This document shows, piece by piece, positions 37,028 through 41,668 of a stretch of 50,608 nt of DNA; position 1 is the stretch's first letter, and each line of letters starts with the position of its first letter. The translations under genes were made by a program, and so were the position numbers. The notes under the pieces were generated by a model. It worked only from the letters and a program-made list of their open reading frames with translations, was not told where the DNA came from and searched no databases. Origin of the DNA: Rheinheimera sp. (GTDB taxonomy: Bacteria; Pseudomonadota; Gammaproteobacteria; Enterobacterales; Alteromonadaceae); NCBI GenBank assembly GCA_008015325.1, contig SSFI01000049.1, positions 1-50,608 of the forward strand, read 5' to 3'.

Positions 37028-39151
37028 GTGAATCCTATCGTAAAATCATTCCAGTTTGGTCAGCATACCGTCACTTTAGAAACCGGTGTCATTGCCCGTC
37101 AGGCTGACGGTGCCGTATTAGCCAGCATGGGCGATACCGCAGTTCTGGTCACTGTAGTTGGTAAAAAAGAACCAAAACCAGGTCAGGACTTTTTCCCGCT
37201 GACTGTAAACTATCAGGAAAAAATGTATGCTGCCGGCCGTATCCCAGGTGGCTTCTTTAAGCGTGAAGGCCGTCCAAGCGAAGGCGAAACTTTAACTTCA
37301 CGTCTGATCGACCGTCCAATCCGCCCACTGTTCCCTGAAGGCTTCACCAATGAAGTTCAGGTCATTGCAACTGTGGTTTCTGTTGAGCCGGACATCCAGC
37401 CGGACATCATCTCTATCCTTGGTACTTCAGCTGCGCTGGCGATTTCTGGTATTCCGTTCAGCGGTCCGCTGGGCGCTGCCCGCGTTGGTTATATCAATGA
37501 CCAGTACGTGCTGAACCCGTCTGAAACCGCGCTGAAAACCAGCAAACTCGACCTGGTTGTTGCCGGTACTGCCAACGCGGTATTGATGGTTGAATCTGAA
37601 GCTCAGGTGCTGTCAGAAGACGTGATGTTAGGTGCAGTGGTTTATGGTCACGACCAAATGCAGGTTGCCATCAAAGCTATCGCTGAATTTGCAGCTGAAG
37701 CTGGCAAGCCGGCCTGGAACTGGGTTGCTAAGCCGAAAAATGACACGCTGATCAGCAAAATCGAAGCACTGTCGACTGCTGCTGTTGGTGAAGCGTACCG
37801 CATCACGGAAAAAGCCAAACGCTACGAGCGCATTGGCGCTATCAAAGCAGAAGTATTTGCCCAAATCAAAGCTGAACTGGCTGAAGGTGAGAGCTTCAAT
37901 GAAACTGAAGCCGGCGAAATTTTCCATAACCTGGAATCAAAAATCGTCCGTAGCCGCATCATTGCCGGCGAGCCACGCATCGATGGCCGTGACAACGAAA
38001 TGATCCGCGGTCTGTCAGTCATGACTGGTTTACTGCCACGCACGCACGGTTCTGCCCTGTTCACCCGTGGTGAAACGCAAGCGCTGGTCACTTGTACTTT
38101 AGGTACAGCCCGTGACGCACAAACAGTTGACGATCTGCTGTCAGACAAAACCGACAACTTCCTGTTCCACTACAACTTCCCTCCATTCTCAGTTGGCGAA
38201 ACCGGCATGGTCGGTTCACCAAAACGCCGCGAAATCGGTCACGGTCGTCTGGCAAAACGTGGTGTAGCTGCCGTAATGCCTGATTTTGATGCTTTCCCGT
38301 ACACAGTGCGGATGGTTTCTGAAATCACTGAGTCAAACGGTTCAAGCTCGATGGCATCTGTGTGTGGTTCTTCACTGGCACTGATGGACGCTGGTGTCCC
38401 AATCAAAGCCTCTGTTGCTGGTATCGCCATGGGTTTGGTCAAAGAAGGCGACAACTTTGTTGTCCTGTCTGATATTCTGGGCGACGAAGACCATCTGGGC
38501 GACATGGACTTTAAAGTAGCCGGTACTACTGCTGGTATCACTGCTCTGCAGATGGATATCAAGATTGAAGGTATTACTAAAGAAATCATGCAGATCGCAC
38601 TGAAACAAGCCAAAGCCGCCCGTATCCACATTCTGGGTGTAATGGATTCTGCGATCAGCACGCACCGTTCTGAACTGTCTGAGCACGCACCACGCATCTA
38701 TACCTTACACATCAACCCGGAGAAGATCCGTGATGTTATCGGTAAAGGCGGCGCTGTGATCCGTCAGATCACTGAAGAATCAGGCACTACTATCGAAATC
38801 GAAGATGACGGTACAGTCAAAATCGCCGCCACCAACAGCGCTGCTGCTGGTATTGCAATCGCCAAGATTGAAGCCATCACGGCTGAAATCGAAGTTGGTG
38901 CAGTGTACGAGGGTGAAGTCGTGCGCATTGTTGATTTCGGTGCTTTCGTCAACGTACTGCCGGGTAAAGATGGTCTGGTGCACATTTCACAAATCTCTGA
39001 TGAGCGCGTGAATAATGTGGCAGAGCACCTGCAACTGGGCCAGAAAGTGAAAGTGAAGGTACTGGAAGTAGACAAACAAGGCCGCGTCCGTTTGTCTATC
39101 AAAGAAGCCAACAGCAAAGCGGGCGAAGCCCATGCCGAAGCAGTTAACTAA
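37028..39151 (+). CDS. pnp: Polyribonucleotide nucleotidyltransferase (PNPase)
   Basis: A 3'-5' phosphorolytic exoribonuclease of the RNA degradosome. 707 residues (E. coli 711). Two RNase PH domains (about 1-215 and 310-545) separated by an all-alpha linker, then KH (about 550-615, [11 protein letters not shown]) and S1 (about 620-690, [23 protein letters not shown]). The catalytic second PH domain carries the phosphate-binding SNGSSSMAS. The start is GTG, with AAGGAA about 10 bases ahead. The last codons overlap the nlpI start by 20 bases. Confidence 0.98.
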
Positions 39152-40085
39152 GCTGCTGCTGGTGCCACTGCTGCTCAGTGCAGTAGTGGCGTTACCGGCC
39201 TGCCAACTGGCGCCTAAAGCGCCTGTTGGTGTCCTCGTTGAAAATCCGCTTGAACCAGAACCACTTGCTGCACCGTTTCGCACCGAAATCGCCATTGCGC
39301 GCATCAGTGAAATGCTGCAAAGCGCCAAAATGTCTGATGCCGAACGTGGCCGTTTACACTATGACCGTGGTGTGATGTATGACAGTGTCGGGCTTGCTGC
39401 ACTGGCGCGTTATGATTTTATGCGTGCCTTGCGTCTGCAGCCGGATATGGCGGATGCTTATAACTTTATGGGGATCCAGCACACGCTGAGCGGTGATTAC
39501 GAGCTGGCTTATGACGCTTTTGATTCAGCGCTGGAACTGGAACCCAAGTATCAGTATGCCTATTTAAACCGTGGTATTGCCTTGCAGTATGACGGCAAAC
39601 TGGCGCTGGCCATCAATGATTTTCAACAGTTTCAGGCGTTAAAACCGGATGATCCGTACCGTAGCCTCTGGTTATTTTTAGCCGGGGCCGAACAGTCGGA
39701 GCCGCAGGCATTGGCTGTGTTGGCAAAACAACAGGCAGCGCTGGATAAAAAAGCCTGGTCCGCACAGATTGTGGCGTTTTACCTCGGGCAAATCAGTGAA
39801 GCTGAGCTATTGAAACTTGCCAGTACTGATGCCACAGATCCGAAGCAACTCGCTGAACAGCTCTGTGAAGTTTATTTTTACCTGGCACGCTGGCATGCGC
39901 TTAAGCATAACCCGACACTCGCGGCCTCGTACTTTAAAAAGTCACTGGCGACCAATGTGTATGAGTTCGTCGAACATCGATATGCCAGACTCGAGCTGGA
40001 CCGGCTGCGTCAGGCCGTCGTTGAACAGGCTGACTCTTCGGATCAGGTTGAAGCGCAGGAACAGACTGATGCTCATCAGCATTAA
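39132..40085 (+). CDS. nlpI: Lipoprotein NlpI
   Basis: A 317-residue outer-membrane lipoprotein of TPR repeats. In E. coli it is the adaptor that brings endopeptidase MepS to the protease Prc, so controlling peptidoglycan growth. Signal peptide with lipobox ALPAC (C24, then Q, so outer-membrane sorting). TPR repeats begin at about 62 ([48 protein letters not shown]). The start overlaps the end of pnp by 20 bases, so it is translationally coupled to it. The C-terminal tail is rich in E, Q, A and H, and its last codons contain the start of the next gene. Confidence 0.95.
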
Positions 40086-41232
40086 GCTGTGGTGTCAGAT
40101 AAAAAAAAGCCGGCTTGCTGGCTTTTTTTTATTTTCGACGTTATTGGGCTGCCAGCCACAGCCCGCTCCTGAACCTGGCGCACTGGAATTCGGCCGAGCT
40201 AAACAATCATTACAAGCCGGTCTGCCAATCAAAGCGGCCGAGCAGCTGGCTACTGCTATCCGGCAAGGTCATCCTGACGCCGTCACACAGTGGCTGGAAC
40301 TGACACTGCCGCAGCGTGGGCCGTTACAACAATACCAACAGTTGCAGGCATGGTCTGTGGCACCGCTGACTTCTGCACAGGCGGTGCGTTTAGGCTTATG
40401 GCATGACGCGACCGTGATGCCGCCAGCCTTGACCGCTACTTCTGCGCCGGCCGGCTGCAAACTCACTGTACAGCCAGTGCTCAGTACTGCAGCGTCAGTC
40501 GCGCATTGGCAGCGGTTGCAGCAAGACTGGCCACAGTCGGATTTTGCGCCGTTACCAGTCTGTTTTTTAGCACCGATTTTTGTCGATAGCCGCGAGCTGC
40601 GCTGTACTGAGCAGCCACAGCAGCGTATTGCCTGCGATGCGAGCCGGTTAAGTGACATCATGCTACACAGTCCTGCACAAATTCTGCTGGTCGCGGCAGG
40701 GCGAGGCCAAGCCAGTTTTAACAATGGCTGGCTGCAATTGCCGGAGCTGTTCTCGCCAGCGTTATTCCGGCACGAATTCAGCCATGCGCTGGGGTTTATT
40801 GATGAATATCAGTTACCTGAGCTGACCGCCTCGGCAGAATGTGCGCGTACCGACATTCTCGCGAATCTGCTACTGGATCCTGCTGATGTTGGCCGTTATG
40901 CCAGGCACTGGCAGCTTGATGTGCAGGATTTGCAGTTAACGCCAGTGGAAACTTGTCGTGCTGCCGGCATTCAGGCCTGGCGCCCGGTGCAGTCTGCCAG
41001 TCATATGCAGCATTTCGAACTCGCAGTGCCGGCGTTATATCAGCGGGTGATGCAACAGCAGCTAAGACAAGCCGCTACGCTGATGCCGGTCCAGTATTAT
41101 TTCGCTTATCTGGCGCGCCAGCAGCAGGAAATGCAGCGTTGGCAGCTGTTGATGGGGCGAGCGGCCGCCTTTGGTTATCCGGCCGCTGTGGCTGCGCTGG
41201 AAGCCGCCGGGGCTAGTTTGACAACTCGCTGA
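40069..41232 (+). CDS. Lipoprotein with HExxH metalloprotease motif, coupled to nlpI
   Basis: A 387-residue protein that I do not recognise as a named family. The ATG lies 17 bases inside nlpI, 8 bases after AGGA. The N-terminus is basic then hydrophobic and ends in a lipobox LLGC (C28, then Q), so it is probably an outer-membrane lipoprotein. Residues about 40-70 resemble a Sel1/TPR repeat (AAEQLATAIRQGHPDAV). The central domain has H235-E-F-S-H239-A-L-G-F-I-D-E, an HExxHxxGxxDE zinc-protease signature. Six further cysteines could form three disulfides. The C-terminal segment GRAAAFGYPAAVAALEAAG is again Sel1-like. Being coupled to nlpI, it may be an envelope protease acting with NlpI. That role is inference. 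The end overlaps the convergent PilZ gene by 20 bases. Confidence 0.8.
   Translation: MLISIKLWCQIKKSRLAGFFLFSTLLGCQPQPAPEPGALEFGRAKQSLQAGLPIKAAEQLATAIRQGHPDAVTQWLELTLPQRGPLQQYQQLQAWSVAPLTSAQAVRLGLWHDATVMPPALTATSAPAGCKLTVQPVLSTAASVAHWQRLQQDWPQSDFAPLPVCFLAPIFVDSRELRCTEQPQQRIACDASRLSDIMLHSPAQILLVAAGRGQASFNNGWLQLPELFSPALFRHEFSHALGFIDEYQLPELTASAECARTDILANLLLDPADVGRYARHWQLDVQDLQLTPVETCRAAGIQAWRPVQSASHMQHFELAVPALYQRVMQQQLRQAATLMPVQYYFAYLARQQQEMQRWQLLMGRAAAFGYPAAVAALEAAGASLTTR
40101..40130 (+). terminator. Intrinsic terminator inside the 5' codons of the HExxH lipoprotein gene
   Basis: Eight A plus GCCGGC pair with GCTGGC plus eight T (one G-T wobble) around a TT loop, about 16 bases after the nlpI stop codon. 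It has all features of a strong terminator for nlpI, yet the same bases encode residues 11-21 of the next protein's signal peptide (IKKSRLAGFFL). Translation through it could prevent the hairpin from forming. Confidence 0.85.
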
Positions 41233-41566
41233 GTTCTCGGCTCAGCATTTCTGCATCACCCAGATTCAGCTCTAACAACCGGCGCAAATGACTGGCACTT
41301 TCGATGTCGATGCGCTCACAGCGCAGGCCTATAGTGGCGTCGTGTAAGTGAGCAATGCTGACATCCATTTCTAATACCAGCTCAGACTGGTCCAGCTGAA
41401 ACTGTAACTGCGCCTGTTCACCAACCAGCCCCTGAAAGTCGGCCGGACGCTGCACCAGGGCACCTTTTAACGACAGGTCCAGCACCTCAGTGAAGAAGTT
41501 CTGCCCCTGAAAACGCAGAGTGGCCTGATTGTTATACAAAATACGGCTGAACTTACGGTGGTCCAT
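41213..41566 (-). CDS. PilZ-domain protein
   Basis: A 117-residue single PilZ domain, expected to bind cyclic di-GMP in the cytoplasm. The RxxxR loop is R4-K-F-S-R8 and the second motif is D30-L-S-L-K-G35 (D/NxSxxG), both complete. No partner domain is fused, so it would act by binding another protein; motility, adhesion and exopolysaccharide control are common for the family. The ATG at 41566 follows AAGGAG at 6 bases; a longer in-frame form lacks such a site. The Wzc-like export operon at 4.5 kb is a possible, but unproven, client. Confidence 0.88.
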   Translation of the reverse strand: MDHRKFSRILYNNQATLRFQGQNFFTEVLDLSLKGALVQRPADFQGLVGEQAQLQFQLDQSELVLEMDVSIAHLHDATIGLRCERIDIESASHLRRLLELNLGDAEMLSRELSELSN

Positions 41567-41609
41567 GACAGCTCCTTGAGAATCGCTAAAAGCATAAGCT
41601 GTTTTGCCG

Positions 41610-41639
41610 AAAAAAAACAGGCTGTTATCACACAGCCTG
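41610..41639 (-). terminator. Terminator of the lipoate operon
   Basis: On the minus strand: 8-bp stem CAGGCTGT/ACAGCCTG with a 6-nt loop followed by eight T residues, about 30 bases after the lipA stop. Confidence 0.9.
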
Positions 41640-41668
41640 CTTTGGAACAACTTAAGCCTGGTCAGCGG

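Follow-up and report, generated by a model that had tools for sequence, protein, structure and literature searches.

A metalloprotease-like gene directly behind nlpI in the Alteromonadaceae, with terminator-like hairpins in its signal-peptide codons in two clades

In Escherichia coli, NlpI is described as the adaptor through which the periplasmic protease Prc reaches its substrates at the outer membrane, MepS among them, and four acidic positions of NlpI bind Prc (PMC5686067). The locus analysed here lies in a window of 50,608 nt (the whole stretch of DNA that was examined) from Rheinheimera sp., and resembles this system in that NlpI would again serve as adaptor for a periplasmic protease, a partnership that we infer. 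It differs in the enzyme, because Prc is a PDZ protease, encoded here at another locus, whereas the window protein has a zinc-type motif, is encoded right behind nlpI and was found in one family alone within the samples searched. Another envelope protease with an HExxH motif and TPR repeats is BepA; it differs, as described in PMC7950410, by its M48 zinc ligands and the C-terminal position of its repeats, and the M48 model matched neither the window protein nor any of the 46 catalytic domains of the family that were searched. The motif HExxHxxGxxD is that of the Asp-zincins, and is shared with Acel_2062; relative to the account of that protein in PMC3890501, the window family has a larger domain, possibly with three disulfides, and little similarity outside the motif, with PF06262 matching two of the 46 catalytic domains (best E 0.11). 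The best weak metallopeptidase matches of the family were M64 (PF09471) and M6 (PF05547, TIGR03296), none of which is matched by the window protein.

A closely following ribosome prevents the action of intrinsic terminators in E. coli, as in pyrL-type attenuation, where the terminator lies in the leader-peptide region (PMC5021804). In the arrangement proposed here a ribosome close to RNA polymerase would likewise prevent an intrinsic terminator, but the terminator-like element falls within signal-peptide codons of the very gene that it would control, behind a full upstream gene. Overlapping genes are, in addition, often translationally coupled (PMC6728339). Among the matches listed in the open-licence literature (titles and starts of abstracts), there was no paper on this protease or on a terminator within signal-peptide codons.

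The gene behind nlpI and its distribution

The upstream gene of the window was identified as nlpI by NCBIfam NF008391 (356 bits, cut-off 250), and its product matched the E. coli NlpI structures with an E of about 4e-69. The ORF that follows (387 codons) opens with an ATG at 40069, in a different frame from nlpI, whose last 17 nt it overlaps (stop codon TAA, 40083–40085), with a spacer of 8 nt after AGGA (40057–40060); both the start codon within nlpI and its AGGA are thus as the original prediction had them (Table 1). Such an overlap is found chiefly in the Rheinheimera clade: the first in-frame ATG lies upstream of the nlpI stop codon in 33 of the 34 loci of that clade (type A, see below) versus 3 of 63 loci of type B or without hairpin. 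The simple view of a product made in register with NlpI by coupling misses a terminator-like hairpin situated between the two genes.

Table 1. Features at the nlpI junction (positions in the window)
Feature	Position	Strand	Basis
nlpI, outer-membrane TPR lipoprotein adaptor	39132..40085	+	NCBIfam NF008391, NlpI structures
AGGA, possible Shine-Dalgarno of the protease gene, within nlpI	40057..40060	+	read in sequence
Undescribed gene for a HExxHxxGxxDEY metalloprotease-like lipoprotein, 387 aa	40069..41232	+	first 17 nt overlap nlpI
Signal peptide and lipobox codons (LLGC, putative lipid-bearing Cys28)	40069..40152	+	lipobox pattern
Intrinsic-terminator-like hairpin and U-run	40102..40130	+	stem 40102-40113 with 40118-40129, loop CTTG
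Catalytic domain, residues 126-341, source of family profile A3	40444..41091	+	
Putative zinc motif H235-E-F-S-H-A-L-G-F-I-D-E-Y247	40771..40809	+	conserved in homologues
Convergent ORF, PilZ-like (presumed name)	41213..41650	-	in every genus locus compared

The protease gene and the convergent gene, which we take to be PilZ-like, share 20 nt at their 3′ ends (41213–41232), so that read-through transcripts would enter the PilZ-like gene in antisense. At the start of the mechanically called PilZ-like ORF there is a strong terminator-like hairpin on the minus strand (41618–41639), probably the terminator of the next gene, presumably lipA, ahead of the true ATG of the PilZ-like gene. A promoter scan of the window found none.

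A first protein search identified homologues in 55 of 98 relatives, comprising 22 of 22 from the genus (the window's genome included), 33 of 37 from other genera of the family and none of 39 from other families. Profile A3 was found in 243 of 246 Alteromonadaceae genomes, and in all 229 of good quality, with one match per genome except for two genomes with two; the three genomes without a match are 81–85% complete. Outside the Alteromonadaceae, none of the 138 genomes of the order sample had a match at E 1e-5. In a class sample (n = 274), the profile hit two members of the family and gave three further matches that were weak and partial (E 0.001–0.006, covering 30–48 profile positions around HExxH), and a phylum sample (n = 249) yielded five matches at E 0.001, all from members of the Alteromonadaceae; the order, class and phylum samples overlap.

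Gene nlpI was situated directly upstream of the protease gene and on the same strand in 127 of 127 loci, or in 110 of 110 distinct loci once 17 duplicates, identical in the last 600 nt of the ORF, were removed; this tally leaves aside L089–L091 (weak class-sample matches) and L092–L093 (Prc loci). The same was true of all 55 loci of the first set, from which L001 was excluded because its contig has the same length as that of L003. This linkage suggests a dedicated partnership of the protease with NlpI. Alternatively, the metalloprotease could act on an envelope substrate of its own without any physical contact with NlpI, the adjacency resulting from operon inertia: only one bacterial family is involved, so the linkage may date to a single event, and shared ancestry together with inertia may account for it. 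However, the link to nlpI was kept in every distinct locus, whereas the far-side neighbours of the genus (the PilZ-like ORF and lipA) are mostly missing at the loci of other genera, some of which are short, and we consider this alternative somewhat unlikely.

Prc was above cut-off in all 36 family genomes searched, and we therefore reject its replacement by the new protease. Three of the Prc-facing positions of NlpI are acidic in 105, 110 and 110 of the 110 loci, and the fourth in 29 according to the letters listed, the window included; residue numbers were assigned to letters by a fit on A114. Because Prc is present and three of the four positions facing it stay acidic, the protease would most likely be an addition to Prc and not a substitute for it.

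Hairpins within the signal-peptide codons

Right after the nlpI stop codon the window reads AAAAAAAAGCCGGCTTGCTGGCTTTTTTTT, containing a predicted hairpin (fold z −4.27) across which the protease frame reads K-K-S-R-L-A-G-F-F. With its GC-containing stem-loop and U-run it has the sequence of an intrinsic terminator, and it obtained 30 in our second terminator score. In frame, an A-run encodes lysines and a U-run encodes phenylalanines, residues appropriate to a signal peptide. The first terminator scan did not list this hairpin, perhaps because the U-run was counted into the stem. Within 30 sense ORFs of the window, a list chosen by hand, there were three terminator-like sites, with scores of 30 (the junction hairpin), 1 and 35, the last located in the 5′ region of the PilZ-like ORF, probably ahead of its true start. 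The sole Rfam match was Thr_leader, sub-threshold (24.1 bits, gathering 55, E 0.33); it spans 40073–40131, covering the junction hairpin, and has an attenuator-like shape. The hairpin pattern occurs solely at this locus in the window's genome, which rules out a dispersed repeat.

Terminator-like hairpins were frequent at these junctions. Within 150 nt, 71 of the 110 distinct junctions had one of any score, versus 309 of 2200 dinucleotide shuffles, and 64 of 110 had one scoring 20 or more, versus 9.6 expected from codon resampling that preserves the protein; in control windows of the same two genes the latter score was reached in 32 of 1477. The second score was positive in 34/34 loci of type A, 22/24 of type B, 5/16 classified as weak and 1/36 as none, versus 6/400 control windows. 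Three of 27 initial type B calls (L028, L082 and L131) were moved by hand to the weak class because they lack the GAGC core; the counts of start positions, lipoboxes and terminators after the gene use the types before this change. Locus L105, misaligned in alignment A4, is nevertheless counted.

The hairpin of the window represents type A (AAAAGCCGGCTTGCTGGCTTTTTT, read KKSRLAGFF), present in 34 of 34 loci of one clade and starting 15–25 nt past the nlpI stop codon. Set A5 comprises 24 of these 34 loci. Where two loci encode the same residue, their codons were identical in 98.0% of pairs (3007/3067) under the hairpin versus 45.1% outside it, and the highest value among 306 other windows of nine codons was only 67.7%; this test used 31 of the 34 loci, since the frame differs in L018, L021 and L024. 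Both L021 and L024 have the same hairpin in another frame, with the peptide KKAGSLAFF, which indicates that it is the RNA that is conserved and not the peptide. Codon resampling, the synonymous-codon test and this change of frame together rule out that the hairpin is a by-product of the peptide. Covariation was thin in type A (one pair, one cell, with 23 of 500 shuffles equally high), and the case for this hairpin rests on synonymous constraint. In L018 the hairpin precedes the first possible start. Between hairpin and lipobox, loci L018 and L020 have extra codons that are similar in sequence (ALTLRAIVAMLQCSKTF and ALIRAIVALLQCTKTF), giving the impression of a small repeat inserted in this part of the signal peptide.

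A different hairpin, type B, was found in 24 of the 30 loci of a second clade, read for example as MSLLVLLPSSSFF. Here both sides had changed in 11 of 14 pairs and 92.8% of cells can pair; on four of five covariation measures none of 500 shuffles was as high, on the fifth two of 500 were, and the signal was lost when the partners were slid. The 5′ arm begins with the first in-frame ATG in several loci of type B, among them L055, L123 and L124. Two loci, L132 and L096, have hairpins of unusual sequence that are of type B or similar to it: the signal peptide of L132 reads SVMTCWWLRSFF, with the pairing retained, and in L096 TGAGTG pairs with CACTCA and is followed by a long U-run.

In a FastTree phylogeny of NlpI plus protease, with some long branches, the 34 type A loci form one side of a branch and the 24 type B loci fall within one group of 30. 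Neither form is present in the 40 loci of a third group or in the remaining six. Only two of the 40 loci of this third clade have a positive second score.

A putative translation-gated attenuator

The best explanation of the locus, to which we give a probability of about 0.5, is a translation-gated attenuator in two of the three major clades combined with a periplasmic protease that accompanies NlpI. By default, a ribosome would halt at the end of nlpI, the hairpin would form just beyond it and transcription would end, yielding the adaptor only. If, instead, a ribosome initiates on the protease frame (in Rheinheimera from the overlapping ATG) and stays close behind RNA polymerase, it would cover the hairpin sequence; transcription would then go on, and some protease would be made. 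Considering the size of the ribosome footprint, a ribosome terminating on nlpI would leave hairpin A free, and for this reason we place termination as the default. The net outcome would be much adaptor and little protease, with cell-wall enzymes or outer-membrane proteins as the most likely joint targets of the two in the periplasm. Termination in cells and its relief by translation are what we infer from the position of the hairpin.

The third clade has neither hairpin, and hence such a valve would not be needed for the nlpI-protease pair as such. In type B, the coincidence of the first ATG with the first codon of the 5′ arm means that the control exerted by the hairpin may be on initiation instead. 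Within the 150 nt that follow the protease gene, a terminator was present in 0 of 32 loci of type A, 3 of 26 of type B and 1 of 47 classed as none or weak; since it is equally missing where there is no hairpin or a weak one, its absence is no special argument for the valve.

Terminator-like hairpins behind nlpI extend beyond this family. Among 26 nlpI loci of other families (the best 30 matches less four from Alteromonadaceae), 15 had such a site within 230 nt and 11 had none, and 10 of these 15 sites start within 60 nt and score 22 or more. Because nlpI elsewhere often has such a hairpin at about the same place, a simple history would be that the protease gene settled behind nlpI and its 5′ end grew over the retained terminator. 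The same observation is also in keeping with mere packing, with the hairpin being the terminator of nlpI and the protease being expressed by leaky read-through or from a promoter inside nlpI, with no regulation by ribosomes. Nevertheless, in type A every mRNA that bears the start codon must cross the hairpin, and the hairpin could have drifted out of the codons, yet two clades retained it; an explanation by packing of this kind is, in our opinion, unlikely. A role of the hairpin in translation or mRNA stability instead of termination, be it masking of the start codon, slowed elongation during export of the signal peptide or a barrier at the 3′ end, would agree with the type B loci whose first ATG opens the 5′ arm; but both forms retain a U-run directly 3′ of the stem, which is needed by a terminator and not by a masking hairpin, and 33 of the 34 type A loci have their start upstream of the hairpin, making such a role improbable. 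Under the attenuator reading, the terminator of nlpI would have become the signal peptide of a new protease gene while keeping both jobs, and the ribosome would settle for each transcript whether protease is made along with the adaptor, which would set the ratio of the two, with different hairpins in the two clades; we propose this tentatively, with slightly less than even confidence.

The protein family and its zinc-type motif

The window protein has the lipobox L-L-G-C28, eight cysteines overall, of which six are in the mature domain (C130, C165, C179, C189, C258 and C296), and the zinc-type motif HEFSHALGFIDEY (H235-EFSHALGFIDEY247). A lipobox, six cysteines that could form disulfides and HExxHxxGxxDE had all been predicted, and all are present in the window protein. 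Residues H235, E236, H239, D245, E246 and Y247 are invariant in the 110 distinct homologues and G242 is conserved in 109, making HExxHxxGxxDEY complete in 109 of 110, which rules out a chance motif. The sole homologue with G242 altered, to Arg, is that of L099, in which H, E, H, D, E and Y are kept. Likewise, C179, C189, C258 and N266 are present in 110/110, C165 in 109/110, and C130 and C296 in 106/110 each.

Compared with the named relative Rheinheimera texasensis (88% identical), dN was 0.062 and dS 0.494, indicating purifying selection; the resulting dN/dS of about 0.12 against the nearest species rules out a pseudogene. Five pairs of catalytic domains had dN of 0.008–0.101 and dS of 0.149–1.238. 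For a sixth pair, L076–L083, the values were 0.270 and 0.336, which probably reflect an indel, the comparison having been made without gaps. The original prediction had named in advance what would speak against it, namely loss of HExxH among homologues, a neutral dN/dS or no recurrent nlpI neighbourhood; none of the three applies, as HExxH is retained, dN/dS lies far below 1 and the gene adjacent in 110 of 110 distinct loci is nlpI.

At E 1, the window protein matched nothing in Pfam, PHROGs or PDB, and NCBIfam gave only two chance-level matches (E 0.059 and 0.18), in agreement with its description as unrecognised. Even at E 10, no Pfam family whatever was found in it, so that the Sel1-like repeats predicted at both ends were not confirmed for the window protein; repeats were found in its relatives only. 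Pfam identified Sel1 in 8 and TPR_8 in 12 of 48 family members, and a profile of the whole protein matched, among solved structures, mostly TPR and Sel1 chains at about columns 60–180. The homologue of L025 has a long Sel1 array at its C-terminus (Pfam Sel1, E 2.2e-27).

The 46 catalytic domains weakly matched 22 Pfam families, of which 10 are metallopeptidases and 12 are unrelated and appeared once or nearly so. The top three were M64 (21/46 domains, best E 3.2e-5), M6 (6/46) and M12 (4/46), and TIGR03296 (M6) was found in 21 of 48 relatives (best E 9.3e-5). The curated cut-off of peptidase families M64 and M6 was not reached, and the window protein was without any match to them. All eight PDB matches of the catalytic-domain profile were metalloproteases (E 0.62–1.3). 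The Asp-zincins (MEROPS subclan MA(D)) are defined in sequence by HExxHxxGxxD, which is present in 109 of 110 homologues, with Asp at the third-ligand position in all 110. The Met-zincins, subclan MA(M), have a conserved Met in the Met-turn and His as third ligand (PMC3890501); the candidate Met-turn column, Met313, has Met in 69 of 110 homologues, Leu in 10 and gaps in 29 in a rough alignment, and Met is therefore not invariant. The protein looks like a member of an undescribed family of Asp-zincin-type proteases, and its motif suggests zinc-dependent proteolysis. That it is a pseudoenzyme or a zinc hydrolase other than a protease would fit with all family matches being sub-threshold, but H, E, H and D are invariant in 110/110 and the weakly matched families (M64, M6, M12), as well as the eight weak PDB matches, are metallopeptidases, so we regard it as very improbable.

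The lipobox pattern occurs in 33 of the 34 type A loci, in no type B locus and in seven others, so predicted lipidation is mostly clade-specific. Among the lipobox loci of the type A clade, the residue at +2 after the lipobox Cys, on which the +2 sorting rule for lipoproteins turns, is never Asp. As part of the preferred explanation as a whole, the product would be a secreted, disulfide-bonded metalloprotease, and a lipoprotein in the Rheinheimera clade.

In E. coli, NlpI is a hub for cell-wall hydrolases, and a second protease locked to it across a whole lineage, if true, would allow one to test directly which substrates NlpI delivers to proteases elsewhere. If confirmed, a terminator that lies in signal-peptide codons and shows compensatory changes under a coding constraint would be a clear natural example of termination and export served by one sequence, and embedding it there would be a simple means to hold a protease scarce relative to its adaptor. 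It may also illustrate a possible route by which new secreted proteins arise behind terminators.
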